Assembly: GCA_900555195.1 (NCBI GenBank)
Contig: USKC01000069.1
Location: 1 to 11,657 of the forward strand
Origin: an uncultured Lachnospiraceae bacterium
GTDB taxonomy: Bacteria > Bacillota > Clostridia > Lachnospirales > Lachnospiraceae
Length of the DNA: 11,657 nt
Direction: 5' to 3'
Shown: positions 1,857 through 11,657 of the stretch, piece by piece
Numbering within the stretch: the first letter of the stretch is position 1
Layout of the letters: each line of letters starts with the position of its first letter
Translations under genes and position numbers: made by a program
The notes under the pieces: generated by a model
What the model was told of the DNA's origin: nothing
Database searches by the model: none
What the model saw: the letters and a program-made list of their open reading frames with translations, nothing else

Positions 1857-2704
1857 TTATTTCAGCAACTTCCAGTATCCTTTGCGGTCGGAACCGATGC
1901 GCTCAATCAAGCCAGCCCCTTTGAGCATTTTTAATCTAAGCGACACGGTTTTCCGGCTCAGAGACAGGTTTTCGGCAAGGAAAGTCGTTGTGTATGCTGG
2001 ATCGACGGCAAGGAGATTCAGAATTTTCAGTGATGTCTCATCCAGCGTATCTGTCACCTTATCTGTTACCTTTTCTGTCACCCTGCCGGTAACAGAACGG
2101 ATGACCCGATCTTCCGGTGCGGTGAATTTTATCATAATGTCACCGGGATTGATGGTATATTCCGGCTGTGGTACGCCGTCCTTTTCACAAGCAGAGCAGA
2201 TTTTCTCAATGCCACGTCCCCAGCTCTCAATAAAGCCCGCCAGATAGAACACATGGGCAATGTTGGGGTTGTAGGGGCTGGAAGCGTGCTTGTTCATCAG
2301 GTTTTCCAGCGTCCAGTTTTCCGGCAGGCATCCGCAGTTGGCGATGTACAGCTTATCTTCGTACACACTGATTTGGATCGGCACGCCGGATTGATACTGC
2401 TTGTGGCACAGGGCGTTCAGCAAGGCTTCCCGCAGGGCTTCCTCCGGCACAAAGTACCGCTCAATCCGCTGCATCCCCTCATAGGTGATTTTGGCTCTCA
2501 TGTACTTGAGGTACACCAGTTCCACGATCTTGTCGATCTGTTCCAGAATGGAGCCGTGGATTTCATCCTGATACAGCAGGTCGGCATCCGTCTCGAAGTA
2601 GCCGATTTTCACATACGCGCCCAACTGCCATTTCTCTGGGTCTTTGCTAAACAGGAGCATGGCCGCGTTGGTCAGATACGGGCCGTTCATCAGATGGAAT
2701 TTCC
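1857..2704 (-). pseudogene. 5'-truncated ATP-binding (RecG/AlbA_2-like) regulator
   Basis: This is the C-terminal two thirds of a protein of the family annotated as AlbA_2-domain ATP-binding protein or RecG-like regulator. Recognisable homology begins at KFHLMNGPYLTNAAMLLF, near position 2700. A GHKL-type ATPase domain follows, with an EALREALLNAL helix, an IANCG turn and a GFIESWGRGIEKI glycine loop. After it come a VT-rich linker (VTGRVTEKVTDKVTD) and a winged helix-turn-helix (AENLSLSRKTVSLRLKMLKGAGLIERIG) to the natural stop. The N-terminal AlbA_2 domain is missing, and the frame runs upstream only into a truncated recombinase gene read in another frame. There is no ribosome binding site and no proper start (in-frame ATGs at 2729 and 2690 are unsupported). 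I treat it as a pseudogene; the upstream limit is approximate. Confidence 0.8.
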
Positions 2705-3039
2705 CCGTCTGAAAAGATATATGGGACATAGCTGTCTGATGTTTTGGGGCAGCCCGGCATAAAAACACGGTAACCTTTATACTGGAGATACCGCAGGAAT
2801 TTACGGAGATAACTCACCTTGTCGCTGACCGTTTTGGCTGCGTTTGTCTGGCGGATTTCTCTGATCCATCGATTCACTGCCGCTTCTGAAATCACATTTG
2901 TATTTTCTTCCGCCAGCGATAAATCGAAGGAAAGCAATACTCTGCGTGTATTCCGCAAGGTGTCCCCATTGACAGTACCCTGATTGATTTTCAGGTATTC
3001 TTCCAATTCGTTTTTGAAAACGGACTGAAACTCCTTCAT
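2647..3039 (-). pseudogene. truncated second tyrosine recombinase (N-terminal domain only)
   Basis: The ATG at 3037-3039 overlaps the stop of the preceding recombinase as ATGA, the usual coupling of tandem recombinase genes in Firmicute elements. Residues about 1-100 form a SAM-like core-binding domain (NTRRVLLSFDLSLAEEN, SDKVSYLRKFLRYLQYKGYR). Residues SDSYVPYIFSD are the familiar entry into the catalytic domain. There, about 2690-2705, homology stops, and the frame continues for some 17 unrelated codons to a stop inside the neighbouring ATP-binding gene. All catalytic residues (R, K, HxxR, H, Y) are absent, so it cannot recombine DNA. In an intact element this would be a recombinase of about 300-340 aa. 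Confidence 0.82.
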
Positions 3040-4007
3040 GACAGGGGGCACCTCCCTTCAAGGAAAGCGGCGAATGTGCCCGCCGCCTCCATGACCGGGA
3101 GGGCGTACCCCCGAAGCTGCTCCAAATCCAGCCGGGCATAGGAACGGATGGCGTTCTGGTCTGTATGCCCAAGAGTTTTCCTTACCACTTCATAAGGGAT
3201 GTTGTCATTGACCATAGAGCTTGCAAGGGATGAGCGGAATGCATGGGGTCCCTGTTTTCGCCCGTCAGGGTCAATTCCGGCTGCCGCTATGGCAGTCCTT
3301 ACAATCTTAGTGATTGCCTGAACAGAGATATGGCTGTAAGGCGGGACAATGCGCAGGAACACATATGGACTGTCATAGTCGGCACGTTCTTCCTGTAAAT
3401 ATCTCTTTAAAGCGTCTTTTACATCTGGAACCATGGGAAGTTCAATGGCAATGCCTGTTTTGTGCTGCGTAAGCCGGACTAAATTCCCTTCAAAATCCAG
3501 TTCCTTAAACGTCATGGATGAAATATCGCCACTCCTGATTCCAAGGCGTGTCGCAAGGAGCAGGGCAGCGTAGTCACGTTTCCCATGCGGAGAATCCTGG
3601 TCAACACTGTTTTCAATCTTCAGAATTTCCTCTGCCGTGTAAACAGAGGGATACGGCTGCGGCCTTTTAAACAGAGGGACGACACCGCTGTAATCCCTGC
3701 CGGTATATCCGGAATGATAAGCATACCGGAGAAAAGTGCGGATATGTGAAAAATACCACCTGCTGCGGATTCTCAGGCAGGCAGCCCCTATATTGTGGGC
3801 ATCCATTTCCTGTGGCTTTAAACAGCCTGTTTCAGTTACGGCGGATAAAAAGTAATGGCCGATCTTGTCATGGAGATGGATGGTGCTTTCCCGCAAACCT
3901 CTGTGCCGCCCATCTTCAAGATATCCCACAAGGAAAGCGTCCATCTCTGGATTCAGTTCCTGATACCCGCTTGATATTAGTTTGTTTTCATTTGTCTTTT
4001 GCTTCAT
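3036..4007 (-). CDS. tyrosine recombinase / integrase
   Basis: A 323-aa, apparently complete site-specific recombinase. Residues 20-110 form the N-terminal core-binding domain (ESTIHLHDKIGHYF, RTFLRYAYHSGY). The catalytic domain follows, with all signature residues visible: R158 (LGIRSGD), K183 (QHKTG), H255 and R258 (HAFRSS), H281 (LGHTD) and the nucleophile Y290 (SYARLD). The start is fixed by AGGAGG 8 nt before the ATG. The stop overlaps the start of a second recombinase gene by ATGA, which recalls tandem-recombinase elements such as the recombinase-in-trio (RIT) type. Because the second gene is truncated and any third is gone, mobility of the original element is doubtful. The protein itself may still be active on its own sites. 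A 9-bp inverted repeat overlaps the ribosome binding site and may limit translation. Confidence 0.93.
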   Translation of the reverse strand: MKQKTNENKLISSGYQELNPEMDAFLVGYLEDGRHRGLRESTIHLHDKIGHYFLSAVTETGCLKPQEMDAHNIGAACLRIRSRWYFSHIRTFLRYAYHSGYTGRDYSGVVPLFKRPQPYPSVYTAEEILKIENSVDQDSPHGKRDYAALLLATRLGIRSGDISSMTFKELDFEGNLVRLTQHKTGIAIELPMVPDVKDALKRYLQEERADYDSPYVFLRIVPPYSHISVQAITKIVRTAIAAAGIDPDGRKQGPHAFRSSLASSMVNDNIPYEVVRKTLGHTDQNAIRSYARLDLEQLRGYALPVMEAAGTFAAFLEGRCPLS

Positions 4008-4509: not shown

Positions 4510-6201
4510 ATGGCAATTTACCATTTGGAAGCCAAGATGGTCAGCCGGGGCGCGGGCCGCTCCGCTGTGGCCGCCTCGGCCTATCTGAGCTGTTCCCGGA
4601 TGCTCAACGAGTACGACGGGGTGCAGCATGACTACACCCGAAAACAGGGCCTTGCCTGGCAGGCGGTGTTCCTGCCGCCAATGGCTCCCCCGGAATGGCA
4701 GGACAGGGAGAAACTTTGGAACGCCGTGGAGGAAGCGGAGAAAACCAAGGACAGCCGCCTGGCACGGGAGTTCGTTGCCGCGTTACCCATCGAACTGTCA
4801 CGACAGCAGCAGATTGAGCTTTTGCAAGATTTTATCCGGGAGCAGTTCGTGGATGAAGGTATGTGCGCTGACGTTGCGATCCACGACACCGACGGCCACA
4901 ATCCCCACGCCCACATCCTGCTGACGGTACGTCCGTTGACCGAAACAGGCGCATGGCAACACAAGACTGAAAAAGAATATCTCTGTGTCAAGGACGGCGA
5001 GGAACGCGGCTTCACCGCCTCTGAGTTCAAGGCCGCGCAGGCCGAGGGCTGGGAGAAGCAGTACCCCTACAAAGTTGGCAAAAGGAAGGTGTATATGGCT
5101 CCATCCGCAGCCCATGCGCATGGCCATGTTCGTGTGGACAAACACCCAAAAAGCACCCGGTACGGCAGGCAGAACCCCATCTCTGCGCAGTGGAACAGTG
5201 AAGAACAGCTGCTCGTCTGGCGCGAGGCGTGGGCCACGGCAGCGAACCGCTGTCTGGAGCTGGCCGGTCATGCGGAACGCATTGACCACCGCAGCCATGC
5301 CGAGCGTGGCCTGGAGGAACGGCCCACCATCCACGAGGGCGTGGCAGCTCAGGCGTTGGAGCGGCGCGGCATCATCTCTGACCGTTGCGAACTGAACCGG
5401 CAGATCAAGGCCGACAACGCCCTGCTGCGAGAACTGAAAGCGGAGGTCAAAAAGCTGGCCGCTTTGGTTGCCCACACCGTGCCCGCCGTAGCGGAGCGTC
5501 TGGAAAAATTACGCAGCGGGATTTTAATTTTCTGTTATCAGCTGTCCCACATCCGTGTGGGCCAGAAACAGTATCAGGAAACCCTCAATGTGTACCGGTC
5601 CCAGATGGCGAGGTATACCGGGCTGGTACAGCAGATCAAGGACAAGAGCAAGGAGCGCAAAGCCCTGTTGACCGAGAAGAAAACCCTGCCTGCCCGGAAG
5701 ATTTTCAAGCATAAGGAGCTGGCGTCCAAAATTGCAGAGCTGACCGAGGATTTGGAGGAACTGCGCTCTGAAAAAGCGTTGCTGCTGAAGCACTTGGATT
5801 ACGCCGAGGATGCCGAGGCCGAAACCTTCCGCAAGGATATTTCCGCACTAGAAGCCAGCCTGCAAAAGCTGGAGGCACAGGAACAGAAATATTCCGTTGA
5901 ACTGGAGACGGTATTGCAGGAATACGCCGGGGTAAAAGCGCAGTCCACCGGGCTTGACCCGGTTGAATTGTACGAGGCGCGGCATGCTATCCGATCCGGA
6001 TATGAAGCTGCCGTCAATGAAAAATTGGAGCAGGCGTATGGAGATAAGTATTCTCCCCTGCGGTGGATGGAAGCGAAGCGGGCACAGGCGAAGCTGACCA
6101 ACGATTCCATGGAGGAATATGCTGCCCGCAAACTGGCGAAGCAAAAGTACAAATCTATGTCACAGCCCATCCGCGGGTGGAAGCAGGAGCAGGAACGATA
6201 A
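4510..6201 (+). CDS. mobA: MobA/MobL family relaxase (MobQ)
   Basis: A 563-aa DNA relaxase that would nick oriT and stay covalently bound to the 5' end during conjugative mobilization. The N-terminus shows the MobQ pattern: MAIYHLEAKMVSRGAGRSAV, with the presumed catalytic tyrosine Y25 in ASAYLS. The metal-binding three-histidine motif HNPHAH is at 130-135 in a beta strand (ILLTVRP). The relaxase domain ends near residue 230. Residues about 285-480 are Lys/Glu/Leu-rich and predicted coiled coil, with no primase domain such as RSF1010 MobA carries. The length is normal for Gram-positive members. A weak AAGGTG lies ahead of the ATG. There is no mobB or mobC-like gene beside it and no type IV secretion genes, so a helper conjugative element would be needed. 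GC content is clearly higher than in the cargo to its right. Confidence 0.94.
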   Translation: MAIYHLEAKMVSRGAGRSAVAASAYLSCSRMLNEYDGVQHDYTRKQGLAWQAVFLPPMAPPEWQDREKLWNAVEEAEKTKDSRLAREFVAALPIELSRQQQIELLQDFIREQFVDEGMCADVAIHDTDGHNPHAHILLTVRPLTETGAWQHKTEKEYLCVKDGEERGFTASEFKAAQAEGWEKQYPYKVGKRKVYMAPSAAHAHGHVRVDKHPKSTRYGRQNPISAQWNSEEQLLVWREAWATAANRCLELAGHAERIDHRSHAERGLEERPTIHEGVAAQALERRGIISDRCELNRQIKADNALLRELKAEVKKLAALVAHTVPAVAERLEKLRSGILIFCYQLSHIRVGQKQYQETLNVYRSQMARYTGLVQQIKDKSKERKALLTEKKTLPARKIFKHKELASKIAELTEDLEELRSEKALLLKHLDYAEDAEAETFRKDISALEASLQKLEAQEQKYSVELETVLQEYAGVKAQSTGLDPVELYEARHAIRSGYEAAVNEKLEQAYGDKYSPLRWMEAKRAQAKLTNDSMEEYAARKLAKQKYKSMSQPIRGWKQEQER

Positions 6202-6474: not shown

Positions 6475-6527
6475 TATTTTATGAAGTTGCATCACAAGCC
6501 GAATCCGTGCGGAAGGTTGGTGAAAAT

Positions 6528-7130
6528 GTGGCCGATAAAGATATCATCAAAAAGTTAGCAGACGAATGTGGAGGTGTATTCCGCACATCTGATCTTGCAG
6601 CCCTTGGCTATAACACCTATGCGATTCGAAAAATAGTTGAATCACAAATCATTGAGAGAATTAAGCAAGGTTATTACCGCCTTTGTAAAGTGGATGAACC
6701 CATATCCGAGGCGGCTCAAGTTTCCCAACTGTTTCCGGATGGCGTGTTGTGTATGTATACGGCCCTGTTCTATTACCGCTATTCTGACCGAACACCTCTG
6801 GAATGGAATATTGCCGTTGATCGGGATACATCCAAATCTCGTTTTAAGCTGGACCACCCCTTTGTGCGGCCGTATTACATGAAAAAAGAATTTTTGACCT
6901 TTGGTGTTACAACCGCTGATTATGGTGACTGTACTATGCAAATATTTGACCGAGACAGGCTGATTTGCGAATGCGTTTTTTGCGAAAACAAAATGGACAG
7001 AGAGACCTACAACAAGGCCATTCAGAGTTATGTAGCAGATACGAAAAAGAATGTGCCCAAGCTACTGGAATATGCCCAAAAACGAAGAGTTCTAAAAAAA
7101 GTGACCGATCGGATCGGAGTGTGGCTGTAG
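6528..7130 (+). CDS. AbiEi-family antitoxin-like protein
   Basis: A 200-aa protein from this start. Residues about 1-45 form a winged helix-turn-helix (IIKKLADECGGVFRTSDLA, YNTYAIRKIVE). The typical IERIKQGYYRL turn follows, and then a domain with GVLCMYTALFYYRYSDRTPLEWNIAV and an end in DRIGVWL, the pattern of AbiEi antitoxins of type IV toxin-antitoxin systems. These proteins repress the operon and counter AbiEii, a nucleotidyltransferase toxin. I prefer GTG at 6528 because GGAAGG precedes it by 11 nt; GTG at 6507 is in frame but has no visible ribosome binding site. No nucleotidyltransferase gene follows, so the antitoxin looks solitary. It may regulate itself or counter a toxin encoded elsewhere. 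The family call is good; the role here is uncertain. Confidence 0.82.
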   Translation: MADKDIIKKLADECGGVFRTSDLAALGYNTYAIRKIVESQIIERIKQGYYRLCKVDEPISEAAQVSQLFPDGVLCMYTALFYYRYSDRTPLEWNIAVDRDTSKSRFKLDHPFVRPYYMKKEFLTFGVTTADYGDCTMQIFDRDRLICECVFCENKMDRETYNKAIQSYVADTKKNVPKLLEYAQKRRVLKKVTDRIGVWL

Positions 7131-7471
7131 TGGATGCGGGCGCATTTTTCCTTATGTGACTGAAAACAGAGAGGAAAAAGCTTTGGAGGAGAACAAAAGC
7201 ATCCAAGTTTGATGGAGATAATATCTGCAGCGCCTGAAAATGTCGGAATTGTCCATGGCGGATATTATGAATGGTACTGACCAGTTCTACGCATGGATTG
7301 GGATGCAATGCTTTCATAAAATGAACCCTTCATGCAGCAGGTTTGTAAAAACACTGCATGAGATAGCAAGGAAAAAGTCTGTCTTATAGAAAACAATGCT
7401 AATATTTTGTAGCGGAAATCGAAGGCTTTACAATTTATCGGCCTATATCTTGAAAGTTGGAGAGATGCACA
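7131..7471 (+). other. intergenic stretch where an AbiEii toxin gene would be expected
   Basis: This holds no recognisable gene. The longest plus-strand remnant is a 49-codon frame from ATG at 7240 to TAG at 7389 (starting MSELSMADIMNG). It has no ribosome binding site and no family resemblance, and could be the tail of a decayed gene. A weak promoter candidate for the downstream operon is TTGTAG (7407-7412), 16 bp, TACAAT (7429-7434). Confidence 0.4.
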
Positions 7472-9019
7472 ATGGCTCACAAGAAGAGTCGAGAACAAAT
7501 ACATAAAAATATGAGCCGGGTGCGCAATAGTGATACCGCACTGGAAAAACTTCTGTGCGGGGAACTTGTTCGTCATGGGGTTACTACATTTACAAGGAAC
7601 AATAAGACGATTTTTGGAAAACCGGATATTGTTTTTTTTGCTCGAAAAATCGCGATATTCTGTGACGGAGATTTTTGGCATGGATATAACTGGAAGCAGT
7701 CACAAAATGAAATAAAAAGTAATCGTGATTTTTGGATTCCTAAAATTGAGCGTAATATGCAGAGAGATGTTGAGGTAACGGCACGGCTACAGGAACAAGG
7801 TTGGACTGTTCTTCGATTCTGGGGACATGAAATACAAAAAGAACTGGAATACTGTATTTCCGTGATTTTGGATGAGTTGCGAGTTTTCCCCGTTCAGCCG
7901 TATAGAACAATTGACCTTTGTGCTGGCATCGGCGGCATTCGTCGCGGCTTTGAACTTACAGGACAGTTTGTCAATGTACTTTCTTCGGAAATTGACAAGT
8001 ACGCTTGTAAAACATACCAACATTTATATGGGGACAATCCCGAAAACGATTTGACCAGTGATGAATTTAAACGGCAGGTGGAAAACACGGAATATGGAGT
8101 GCTTTTGGCTGGATTTCCCTGCCAAACATTCAGCCGGGTCGGGTTGCAAGAAGGCTTTGAAAACGAAGAAAAAGGTAAAATTTTTTTCCATATCTCCGAT
8201 ATTATTAGAAGAACCAGACCGTTTGCTTTATTTTTGGAAAATGTAGATCGTTTGGTTTCTCACGATGAAGGGCGAACATTCAAAATCATTATCGAAACGC
8301 TTGTAAATGATTTGGGGTACCATGTAATTGGCGTCACAAAAGAAGCAGATGGGGCGCTCAGATATGTGCCTAAATCTTTTGTTCGCAATTCCCGCGACTT
8401 TGGCGTTCCGCAAAATCGACCTCGTACATACATAATCGGTTTTGATACGGAGCGATTTGCCCCGGAGAGACTGGCTATGCTGCCAACGGAAATGCCTTGT
8501 ACTCGAGCGGGCGAACTATATCATGATTTGAATGATGTGTTAGAACATGATGTGCCCCCGAGGTACTATATGGCATCTGGTTATTTGGAAACGCTCATCA
8601 AGCATCGAGAACGCCAAGAAGGAAAAGGTTACGGATTTGGTTATCGGATCGTGAATGCAAAAGAAATTGAGAGACCTATAGCCAACACATTGTTGGCAAC
8701 AGGAGGTTCAGGTCGCGAACGGAATTTAATTTACGATCCCAAAGAGGGAATTGCGGGACAAATTATTAAAGGGAAAAAAACCCCTCTCAACGATAAGGGC
8801 ATCCGTGTTATGACTCCCACCGAGTGGGGAAAACTCCAAGGCTTTATTAACTACGGTTTCGTGAACGCTGAGGGAAAGGACGAATTTACATTCCCTGAAG
8901 GGATGCCGGTTGTCCAGCAGTATAAGCAGTTTGGCAACTCCGTTACAATTCCAGTGATTGAGGAGATGGCACGGTTTATGCTTGATTGTTTAGCTATCTT
9001 GCGCGGAGAAGAACCATAG
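7472..9019 (+). CDS. fusion of Vsr-type endonuclease and C5-cytosine DNA methyltransferase (DrmMII-like)
   Basis: A 515-aa two-domain protein. Residues 1-135 form a Vsr very-short-patch repair endonuclease: NMSRVRNSDTALEKLL, GKPDIVF with the metal-binding D52, DGDFWHG with H70, then FWIPKIERNMQRD and GWTVLRFWGHEI. Residues 143-515 form a complete C5 methyltransferase: motif I DLCAGIGG (D148), motif IV GFPCQ with catalytic C217, motif VI ENV (256-258), motif VIII NSRDFGVPQNRPR, a target-recognition region, KLQGF, and motif X GNSV (from G488). ATG 7472 follows TTGGAGAG by 7 nt; an upstream in-frame TTG at 7457 is less likely. The next gene begins 16 nt on, so they form an operon. The expected role is to methylate host cytosines and repair T:G mismatches from their deamination. 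With a DrmE-like neighbour, the methyltransferase fits DrmMII of class 2 DISARM. Separate vsr and dcm genes are the usual state. Confidence 0.92.
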   Translation: MAHKKSREQIHKNMSRVRNSDTALEKLLCGELVRHGVTTFTRNNKTIFGKPDIVFFARKIAIFCDGDFWHGYNWKQSQNEIKSNRDFWIPKIERNMQRDVEVTARLQEQGWTVLRFWGHEIQKELEYCISVILDELRVFPVQPYRTIDLCAGIGGIRRGFELTGQFVNVLSSEIDKYACKTYQHLYGDNPENDLTSDEFKRQVENTEYGVLLAGFPCQTFSRVGLQEGFENEEKGKIFFHISDIIRRTRPFALFLENVDRLVSHDEGRTFKIIIETLVNDLGYHVIGVTKEADGALRYVPKSFVRNSRDFGVPQNRPRTYIIGFDTERFAPERLAMLPTEMPCTRAGELYHDLNDVLEHDVPPRYYMASGYLETLIKHRERQEGKGYGFGYRIVNAKEIERPIANTLLATGGSGRERNLIYDPKEGIAGQIIKGKKTPLNDKGIRVMTPTEWGKLQGFINYGFVNAEGKDEFTFPEGMPVVQQYKQFGNSVTIPVIEEMARFMLDCLAILRGEEP

Positions 9020-9035
9020 GCAGAGGTGTATAACT

Positions 9036-11657
9036 GTGACGGCGGAAAAATTGGCAAATGCTATTTTGGAAAAATGCGATATTTACTTCGGTGATGCACT
9101 AATATCAAAAGAATCAGTCATTGAAGAATATCTGTCTTTCTTTGCCAATTCATTGGTATCAAAGGAGAGAACGGTTAATTTTGCTCTTCATACAGGTTCT
9201 CTGTGCTTTGATGCCGTTTCCATTGTTGCCGTCGCACTGGGTTGTCTATCTTATAACTTGTCTACAAATGACGATATCATCTCCGCTCTACAGATAGATG
9301 ATATGGTCATGTATAATGGTCAGAGGTATCGCTGGAAGGGTACCCGCGTTGAATATGGTAAACTTTGCATGATAATTGAGCAAGACGGAAAAGGAAAAAA
9401 CGGGAAAATGACCAGGTTTCTTCCTCTGGAAAAAAATCAGCATCTGATAAAACCTTATTATGGCGAATCTCAGATTACTGACGGACGCGGCATTAGAAAG
9501 AAAAAAACAAACCGTGAGGATTTTTTAGCTTTTGTATTTGATATGGATATACAGGAAATACCTGCACAAATTGATGTCTCAATTGTTATCGTGGCTGACC
9601 GCACTTTCTTTGGTGAAATCTGTAAGCAAGTCCGCATTGTATATGGCGAAGGCAAAGAAGTTGGCTTGTTAGATATTATTCCGGCGGCATATTACACCAG
9701 CAGTGGTGAAGAGCATCAGTTTGGTCTGAATCCGACAAAAGCGGAACCGGTTTTGAAAGTAACCAGCAAAATTTCGACGGCACGAGATCTGATTCTGGAT
9801 AGAAACGGAAATAAAGTAGTGGGCCTGTTGGTTATCGGTGGCGTGTCCATGATTGAGAACGGATCCGAACTTGCCGATTTACTCCGAAGAAAAGTGTTAC
9901 GTTTTGCTTATGTTACATCCCCAATCAAAGCGGGCATGGGCGAACATATCTTAGAGATGTATGAGGGAGCTTCTGTATTTGCTTGTACAAAAAACCTGTT
10001 ATCCAAGAGTAATCAAATGATTCGCAATGACAATCCGCTTACTGCAGAACTTCACCGGCAGATTATGAATGTAATACACCATACGGTCACAGCAATTCCC
10101 GTAGGAGAAGGTTGGAGCTGGGATGAATACAAAACCATAAAAAATGCGCTTGTTGTCATCAAACAGTCCAATTGGCATGAACCTACCAAAGACGATTTTG
10201 TAGTGACTGCGCACGGCCTATTGAATCTTCTTAATACCGCAGTTTTCCGTTTGGAAATAATGGAAAAAGCCATTTGCAATGGACAAATTAACAAAGCGGT
10301 TACTCCCCCCAATGAACGCATTCAAAAATTATGGAGTATTGCGGATCAGGCCGGGGCTATGCAAGAATTATGTATGGTTGTGGCAGATGCATTGGAGAAA
10401 AAGTATCGTGAACGGTTGAATACCTGTCCAAAGGCAAATGTTCTTAAGGAATACTTGGACTCACATAAATTTAGCAAGGCTGCAATCGTTGTTCCAAAGG
10501 CATACTATGCGGACTTACTTCGCATGGAATACCCTGAATACTTTGCTGATGAAGCTATGATTTGTGTGACGGCAAATCGTTTCGATAGCCAGAAAAAATA
10601 CGATGCAGTTTTGTGTGTCGGAGAATTGAATAATAAGAGATTTGATCCGTTGCAATGCATGTTCGCACGGAATATAGATGTTCTTCTATATGAATGTGAG
10701 GAAAAGGTATTTACATTCCGACGGAAGAAGATCGCAAAATACGAGCGAAAATTGAACCAAAGAATCGGTGCCACCCGTATGGAGGATGATCCGAAAGAAG
10801 ATGACTCTTCTTTGGAAATGCACATGGAAAAGGAGATGCAGCGGTTCTCCGTTCTGGACGAATATATTGATGCCCTTAATACATTTGATATTCACAAATT
10901 AGTGCAGAGGAGCAATGCAGGAGGAATTAATGCTCCGATGTCTGAAGTTAAATATGTGGGTACTTTTGTTTCGGGAGAGCAAATATTCTTCTCCAGGTAT
11001 TATTCGGCGGTTGTTTTTGACAACATTGCAGAAAATGTGATTGAAAAATCTCCTGAACAACTACTGCCCGGAGACGTGCTGGTGTTTGTTAAGCGTGATG
11101 ATTACACCAAGAATATTGTTGACGTTATCTATGAACGTCTGCTTCGCGACGGACGTTTGGGACAAGGTGCAATTGATGTTTACGAAAAGTCTCAATATTG
11201 GAAAGAGGCATTACGGGAGTATAAAGAAGCCAATGACTTTACTTATCGAAAGGTCGCACAGAACATGAGAGCGGTTGGAAGCTCTGTCCAGGAGGTCACT
11301 GTTCGGCAATGGCTTATTGATGACAGCCATATTGTCGGGCCTCGTAAGGAACGCACTATGGAGCATATTGCAATCGTGACGCAGGATCCTTATTTGCTGG
11401 CAGATAGCCATGGATATTTTGAGGCATGCGGAGTTGTGCGTCATGACCGTCGAAAGATTCTTGAATTAATTGCAAAAGCTATCAATGACAAGCTCAGCGG
11501 CAACATCCCTGAGAAAGGCAGTGTTCTGAGTGTGGTATATGACAATGTGGACAATCTTTCGGAAACACTGGAACTCGAATACATTACGGAACTGGAGAAA
11601 AGTGTAAATATTAGCATCAATTTGGTGAACACGCCCATTACAGAAGCGGAGGTATTG
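9036..11657 (+). CDS. drmE: DrmE-like DISARM protein, partial at 3' end
   Basis: The frame from GTG 9036 is open to the window edge, 874 codons without a stop. GAGGTG lies 7 nt before the GTG and the methyltransferase stop is 16 nt upstream, so translation in one operon is likely. The protein has no signal peptide or membrane segments. Residues about 480-560 look like a helicase-like Rossmann strand set (AAIVVPKAYYADLL, YDAVLCVGELNNKRFDP, IDVLLYECE) without Walker motifs. About 735-760 resembles a helix-turn-helix. A GPRKERTMEHIAIVT segment lies near 768, followed by a helical tail. Overall layout, size and place next to a C5 methyltransferase match DrmE, a class 2 DISARM component of unknown biochemical role. 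I recognise this from general pattern rather than a diagnostic motif, so the name is moderate; the coding frame is certain. Confidence 0.62.
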   Translation, partial: MTAEKLANAILEKCDIYFGDALISKESVIEEYLSFFANSLVSKERTVNFALHTGSLCFDAVSIVAVALGCLSYNLSTNDDIISALQIDDMVMYNGQRYRWKGTRVEYGKLCMIIEQDGKGKNGKMTRFLPLEKNQHLIKPYYGESQITDGRGIRKKKTNREDFLAFVFDMDIQEIPAQIDVSIVIVADRTFFGEICKQVRIVYGEGKEVGLLDIIPAAYYTSSGEEHQFGLNPTKAEPVLKVTSKISTARDLILDRNGNKVVGLLVIGGVSMIENGSELADLLRRKVLRFAYVTSPIKAGMGEHILEMYEGASVFACTKNLLSKSNQMIRNDNPLTAELHRQIMNVIHHTVTAIPVGEGWSWDEYKTIKNALVVIKQSNWHEPTKDDFVVTAHGLLNLLNTAVFRLEIMEKAICNGQINKAVTPPNERIQKLWSIADQAGAMQELCMVVADALEKKYRERLNTCPKANVLKEYLDSHKFSKAAIVVPKAYYADLLRMEYPEYFADEAMICVTANRFDSQKKYDAVLCVGELNNKRFDPLQCMFARNIDVLLYECEEKVFTFRRKKIAKYERKLNQRIGATRMEDDPKEDDSSLEMHMEKEMQRFSVLDEYIDALNTFDIHKLVQRSNAGGINAPMSEVKYVGTFVSGEQIFFSRYYSAVVFDNIAENVIEKSPEQLLPGDVLVFVKRDDYTKNIVDVIYERLLRDGRLGQGAIDVYEKSQYWKEALREYKEANDFTYRKVAQNMRAVGSSVQEVTVRQWLIDDSHIVGPRKERTMEHIAIVTQDPYLLADSHGYFEACGVVRHDRRKILELIAKAINDKLSGNIPEKGSVLSVVYDNVDNLSETLELEYITELEKSVNISINLVNTPITEAEVL

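Follow-up and report, generated by a model that had tools for sequence, protein, structure and literature searches.

Why should a nuclease predicted to mend mismatched bases be built into the enzyme expected to mark DNA in an antiphage operon? The question is raised by contig USKC01000069.1 (assembly GCA_900555195.1) of an uncultured Lachnospiraceae bacterium, whose 11,657 nucleotides, read on the forward strand, form the window analyzed here. Toward its end lies a gene encoding a Vsr endonuclease domain followed by a C5-cytosine DNA methyltransferase, and directly downstream of it a gene of the DrmE family. The defence island system associated with restriction-modification (DISARM) is made up, in its class 2, of DrmMII, DrmE, DrmA, DrmB and DrmC. 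The Vsr-methylase fusion upstream of a DrmE-family gene is confirmed, and we think it probable that the fusion is the self-marking gene of a DISARM-type operon without detectable DrmC, its Vsr half mending marks that have deaminated. The features that bear on this reading are the following.

7472 to 9019, plus strand: Vsr::C5-methyltransferase fusion gene, 515 aa from the ATG at 7472
7472 to 7879, plus strand: Vsr endonuclease domain, residues 6-141 as numbered from the TTG at 7457
7901 to 8974, plus strand: C5-cytosine DNA methyltransferase domain (PF00145), residues 149-506
8504 to 8839, plus strand: putative target-recognition region of the methylase, modeled with low confidence
9036 to 11657, plus strand, open at the window end: DrmE-family protein gene (NF038316), 874 visible codons

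Profile searches of both halves bear out that one protein carries an N-terminal Vsr domain and a full C5 methyltransferase. The Vsr half scores 123.6 bits with TIGR00632 (above the curated cut-off of 97.85) and 60.6 bits with PF03852, and the methylase half scores 217.1 bits with PF00145 and 232.7 bits with TIGR00675. The open reading frame spans 7457-9019 if begun at TTG; however, because a Shine-Dalgarno-like stretch (GGAGAG, 7459-7464) lies ahead of the ATG at 7472 and this codon agrees with the start of most aligned homologues, we take the ATG as the start. Both Pfam domains are present in 119 of the best 120 homologues listed, and the remaining protein (P0046) falls short of the PF03852 call only. 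A chance joining of two frames is ruled out by the conservation of the fused frame across these homologues. The fusion is not unique to this contig either: 17 of the 35 related loci have it, and so do at least 119 of the best 120 homologues. Among the listed homologues with a readable source name (4 of 120), the fused proteins are named either Vsr or cytosine methyltransferase.

The fusion ends at 9019 and the downstream gene starts with a GTG at 9036, with AGAGGTG just ahead of it; the gap, positions 9020-9035, is the 16 nt noted at the outset. The downstream frame, at first described as DrmE-like, proves to belong to the DrmE family, as it matches DrmE_fam (NF038316) with 782 bits (cut-off 80) over model positions 1-838 of 838. 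With the DISARM_DrmE equivalog NF038323 it reaches 36.5 bits against a cut-off of 250, and no PADLOC model matched it at E <= 0.01. A protein of 875 aa that is 99% identical to it (P0121) seems to represent the same gene. Residues 1-568 of the DrmE-family protein in the window are predicted to adopt a fold resembling superfamily 2 helicases. The drmA and drmB genes of this locus would lie beyond the window, and their order is taken from 35 related loci (designated L plus a number). Of these, 33 were found when genome contigs were scanned using an alignment of DrmE, and two, L044 and L045, came from whole-genome searches. In these relatives drmA comes after drmE in 32 cases and drmB in 28; wherever one or the other is missing, the contig breaks off within drmE or drmA or shortly beyond. 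The DrmA proteins of two relatives score 934 and 946 bits with DISARM_DrmAS, below its cut-off of 950, and the DrmB proteins of the same two score 441.7 and 454.2 bits with DrmB_fam, above its cut-off of 240. The DNA methyltransferase expected of a DISARM operon is supplied by the fused C5 methylase, which matches the PADLOC DrmMII model with 160.7 bits and generic MTase_II models more highly (251.9 and 214.9 bits). Plasmid, phage and viral-contig sequences gave no match when searched for DrmE.

The original prediction looked for drmC as well as drmA and drmB past position 11657; in the relatives the latter two are present, and drmC is not detected. A local DrmC model, narrow in that it was built from six class-1-like sequences, found no match in any of the 35 DrmE-type stretches, several of which are cut by contig ends, even when all six frames were searched. 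The HxKx4D motif of phospholipase D-type nucleases occurs within 6 kb of the operon in one of the 35, in a minus-strand frame unmatched by the local DrmC model, and in all six class-1-like loci. In 15 host genomes the best match to DrmC_I has 44.6 bits versus a cut-off of 133, but this cut-off alone is a blunt test, because the class-1-like DrmC proteins, at 118 and 120 bits, also fall under it. Passages of PMC9142583 describe DrmC as dispensable and often missing in DISARM. The operon is thus of the DISARM type and closest to class 2, but its DrmE falls outside the curated DISARM definition and DrmC is not detectable. It resembles class 2 in having a C5 methylase by a DrmE-family gene, with DrmA- and DrmB-family genes next in the relatives. 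Unlike class 2, its DrmE falls below the DISARM_DrmE cut-off and the DrmA of its relatives just below theirs, no DrmC is detected, and the methylase is fused to or paired with Vsr. The assignment to DISARM therefore holds in the broader sense, whereas a canonical class 2 system does not describe the locus, because of the missed DrmE and DrmA cut-offs and the undetected DrmC. A lineage of this kind makes it more pressing to ask which nuclease DISARM needs, if it needs one.

The Vsr half aligns to E. coli Vsr (1cw0, E 1e-15) with all five active-site positions filled: E30, D57, D70, H75 and D104 correspond to E25, D51, H64, H69 and D97, with a single substitution, H64D. Counterparts of C66, H71 and C73, which we take to be zinc ligands of the E. 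coli enzyme, are absent, and F73, W74 and W93 correspond to its F67, W68 and W86. The same five E. coli residues are listed as the Vsr active site in a passage of PMC12907096, which likens an Asp variant at H64 to functional Neisseria Vsr enzymes; W68 and W86, according to PMC5902632, stack against an A-T pair when Vsr is bound to DNA. One Neisseria enzyme, V.NgoAXIII, is described as a member of a second Vsr group that acts on T:G in all contexts (PMC6116569); by its Asp residue, rather than by a tree that includes the Neisseria enzyme, the fused Vsr may be linked to this group. The catalytic set is intact in 120 of 121 sequences (the best 120 homologues plus the window) and gapped in the remaining one, in a set of best hits that is biased toward intact Vsr copies. 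The ratio of nonsynonymous to synonymous substitution rates (dN/dS) for the Vsr half is 0.04-0.14 in nine of nine pairs, similar to the methylase half, although the pairs are not independent and dS exceeds 1 in several. These comparisons indicate that the Vsr catalytic residues are mostly kept and are under purifying selection. The PDB matches listed for the structure model of the fusion are methylases, so that the comparison by fold covers the methylase half. Judging from its residues, the Vsr half most likely repairs T:G mismatches that arise when 5-methylcytosine (5mC) deaminates.

In the methylase half the PCQ, ENV and QxRxR motifs are intact, and PCQ and ENV are intact in all 29 uncut methylases of the main family. 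Its best PDB match by sequence is Dcm (3lx6/3me5). The alignment to Dcm covers the whole methylase, that to HhaI the catalytic half only, and among the PDB matches Dcm is the sole methylase that aligns through the target-recognition region. The parallel to the Dcm/Vsr pair of E. coli thus extends to both halves, a Vsr homologue and a Dcm-like C5 methylase; unlike that pair, the two are here one polypeptide in a defence operon, with the H64D substitution and with the presumed zinc ligands lost. The original prediction brought in CCWGG as the modified motif, and this claim for DISARM stands in a review (PMC12926258). For the fusion methylase, however, CCWGG specificity is a lead only, because the recognition region by itself finds no match at E <= 10 and is modeled with low confidence.

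If the fusion is indeed a self-marking gene with built-in repair, the operon would run Vsr::methylase, DrmE, DrmA, DrmB, the last two as in the relatives. The C-terminal half would methylate cytosine in its target motif and mark self DNA in this way. The N-terminal Vsr, with Asp in place of His64, would nick T:G mismatches where a marked cytosine had deaminated, and the mended site would be restored and then methylated again. Loss of sites through C-to-T changes would both mutate the host and thin out the self-mark, which a single protein that writes the mark and mends it would prevent; the tether to the methylase may in addition confine and aim a promiscuous nickase. In ordinary restriction-modification, a site lost by deamination of 5mC is DNA safe from the enzyme. 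In DISARM, which is reportedly repressed by methylation, lost sites should make self DNA look foreign, and for this reason repair would preserve the self-mark; built-in repair may stop the "self" label from wearing away. According to passages of PMC9142583, 5mC lowers the ATPase activity of DrmAB in a class 1 system, and work cited there found targeting enhanced tenfold without cognate sites. The fused Vsr retains the residues of a T:G nickase, and the proposal that repair is built into the self-marking arm is the reading that fits best. What the analysis shows is the anatomy of the gene, its family membership, its conservation, the selection on it and its associations; from these we infer the catalytic activity, the existence of a motif and the benefit for self-marking. 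A repair nuclease inside the mark-writer makes upkeep of the self-mark, as a selected function, directly testable.

The original prediction knew of no described DISARM locus with this fusion. We too found no description of a Vsr-DISARM methylase fusion in the literature searched, a search that most subscription papers lay beyond, but the fusion is no single oddity. With the window counted, 18 of 36 loci carry the N-terminal fusion, and in a further ten a separate vsr gene lies directly ahead of the methylase. One locus (L026) has the reverse fusion, methylase then Vsr, after drmB, and one (L027) has vsr beside a methylase remnant. A Vsr is thus present in 30 of the 33 loci that can be assessed, that is, the 36 minus L010, a 99% copy of L045, and minus L015 and L020, which are cut ahead of the vsr position. 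Vsr is missing from L030, from L045 and its copy L010, and from L004, where there is no methylase either.

In the tree of Vsr domains, in which those of L012 and L031 are identical, the 18 N-terminal fusions form one group (support 100/97) inside a clade without the presumed zinc ligands; the Vsr proteins of class-1-like loci and of the reversed fusion fall in the other clade. The tree speaks for a single origin of the N-terminal fusion, and indicates that the reversed fusion of L026 arose separately. On the DrmE tree, however, the fused state has to change five times, so that later loss, replacement or exchange of the N-terminal fusion is assumed; when that tree is rooted at its midpoint, loci with Vsr lie to either side of the root. 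Outside the Vsr part, L001 and L002 hardly differ: their identity is 95-100% across most of the methylase and beyond, but only 77-90% in the Vsr part, and upstream they are unalike. This drop in identity at the Vsr part and upstream points to recombination at the joint between Vsr and methylase. The near upstream flank is common to the window and L001.

The association of Vsr with these operons stands out against loci of other kinds. As controls we used all C5-methylase matches in Clostridia at E <= 1e-30, minus two DISARM loci (n = 18, some stretches short). Vsr is present in 7 of these 18, in none of them fused, versus 29 of 32 DISARM-type loci (Fisher p 0.0002), although the latter figure comes from related loci, among them two near-identical pairs. 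Searches with the fusion as query in 391, 397 and 400 partly overlapping genomes (E <= 1e-30, 1e-60 and 1e-60, respectively) returned four single-frame fusions, all next to DrmE; the survey through DrmE had already yielded all four, which makes the test a small one. A fused frame is absent from all 31 viral-contig loci. On one IMG/VR contig, a lone methylase at the contig start (L049:192-1316) is about 70% identical to DISARM methylases, and the stretch contains no Drm gene; such a methylase could allow a virus to imitate the self-mark.

Six class-1-like DISARM loci, found through DrmB, all have DrmC and a C5-methylase-like gene beside drmD. These methylase-like genes score 21-26 bits with the local model, and the sole one checked (L094) scores 179 bits with TIGR00675. 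In two of the six (L041 and L089) vsr follows drmC. We also examined eight plasmid loci with DrmA or DrmB, chosen from 58 and 59 matched records. Five of the eight stretches have a C5 methylase, three with Vsr (L099, L103 and L106; in the last two Vsr sits with a separate restriction-modification cluster) and two without (L100 and L105), and three have neither (L101, L102 and L104). On a Lactiplantibacillus plasmid, the gene that separates methylase from drmA encodes an 801-aa protein without a match among NCBIfam models. Every Vsr found beside DrmA or DrmB genes is accompanied by a C5 methylase or its remnant. Vsr therefore occurs where a 5mC methylase exists, by no means always, and is no simple replacement for DrmC.

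Several observations weigh against repair of the self-mark as the function of the fusion. The data on repression by methylation come from a class 1 system, and class 2 DISARM is reported to act on modified phage as well (PMC9142583), which counts against a strict self-mark. Self-marking works without Vsr, as the stretch lacks Vsr in four of the six class-1-like loci and in two of the five plasmid loci that have a C5 methylase. The repair function also appears dispensable, because the Vsr is changed in L014, L005 and L026, and the L030 and L045 genomes, although they encode a methylase, give no PF03852 match. In L005 (D51N) and L026 (D51T) the catalytic center is altered, although sequencing error is possible for these single changes. 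The fusion of Paenibacillus roseus (L014:8415-9953) has lost several active-site and contact residues of Vsr, while the methylase motifs and full-length frames for DrmE, DrmA and DrmB remain, which makes it a natural Vsr-dead test case. In addition, Vsr tracks the history of the operon less closely than the core does: over 23 loci, the correlation of sequence similarity with that of DrmE has a rho of 0.49 for Vsr, 0.72 for the methylase and 0.87 for DrmA.

The frequent presence of Vsr in operons without detectable DrmC, whose methylase-DrmE-DrmA-DrmB core holds no other recognized nuclease, invites the thought that Vsr is itself the defence nuclease, held at the mark-writer and nicking or cutting invading DNA once DrmAB is activated. 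The acting nuclease of DISARM is called a mystery in PMC9142583, and passages of PMC12458937 and PMC11090510 read Vsr-like domains as effectors in ARMADA and CoCoNuT III-B, defence systems (DISARM-related or other) that have such a domain in common with the present operon. We nevertheless consider this role unlikely. The Vsr can be damaged, as in L014, L005 and L026, or absent, as in the L030 and L045 genomes, while the operon is kept, and the effectors of ARMADA and CoCoNuT III-B are fused to helicases, whereas here Vsr is fused to the methylase and not to a motor; the residues that contact the mismatch are retained as well. As a strict replacement for DrmC, Vsr is ruled out, given that both are present in L041 and L089 and neither is found in L030 and L045. 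A bolder version, in which the fused Vsr is the missing nuclease of a DISARM lineage without DrmC, and one and the same protein spares methylated sites and opens unmethylated phage DNA for loading of DrmAB, besides or instead of mending host mismatches, strikes us as distinctly improbable.

Alternatively, Vsr may be a passenger, recruited together with the methylase from a type II restriction-modification cassette and performing ordinary repair with no benefit specific to DISARM. C5 methylases of all kinds often have a Vsr nearby, and the nearest non-DISARM relatives of the fused Vsr (L083, L084, L123 and L124) belong to the same clade and adjoin C5 methylases; unlike the fusion they are separate genes, with no Drm genes in their stretches (that of L123 being only 3.7 kb). 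In L022 an extra 370-aa gene of unknown family lies between methylase and drmE, and a relative of it follows vsr-methylase in L053. However, the enrichment of Vsr over the controls, the strong purifying selection on the Vsr half, and the restriction of fusions to DISARM loci in the small test of partly overlapping genomes make a mere passenger rather unlikely. That Vsr harms cells that lose the methylase, as proposed for Caulobacter VsrA, where a VsrA-dependent SOS response sets in once the C5 methylase ScmA is lost (PMC12907096), is very improbable for this gene, because loss of a fused gene removes both activities at once and cannot be punished. Repair of the self-mark is thus the reading that we favor.

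Other candidate nucleases occur near some of the related operons. A sub-branch with a longer DrmB of about 785 aa (L017, L021, L022, L024, L025, L028 and L044) has a NERD-UvrD-like helicase of about 570 aa after it in seven of seven loci, a candidate nuclease partner. Near the operon in L001, L009, L016, L021, L022 and L027 lies a gene for an HNH-type protein whose N-terminus is integrase-like and whose length is about 237 aa (98 aa in L022); the protein was scanned in one of these six. In L045, whose genome gives no Vsr match, the C5 methylase of the DrmE-type operon belongs to another family, and an upstream frame of 524 aa with UvrD-C and Cas4-like parts (L045:18319-19893) is perhaps a substitute nuclease.

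Upstream of the fusion the window contains two further genes of interest.

4510 to 6201, plus strand: MobQ/MobA relaxase gene
6507 to 7130, plus strand: AbiEi-type antitoxin gene

The 3' part of the AbiEi-type gene aligns to L001 at 82-91% identity (about 1.3 kb upstream of the fusion compared). Tyrosine recombinase genes are also found upstream, and together with the AbiEi-type antitoxin and the MobQ relaxase they make the locus appear to be carried on a mobilizable element. On the minus strand, a frame for an integrase N-terminal (SAM-like) domain (2647-3051) runs into one for a RecG-C-type ATPase with a helix-turn-helix domain (1857-2768), and the frames within 1857-3051 look as if a deletion had joined two genes.

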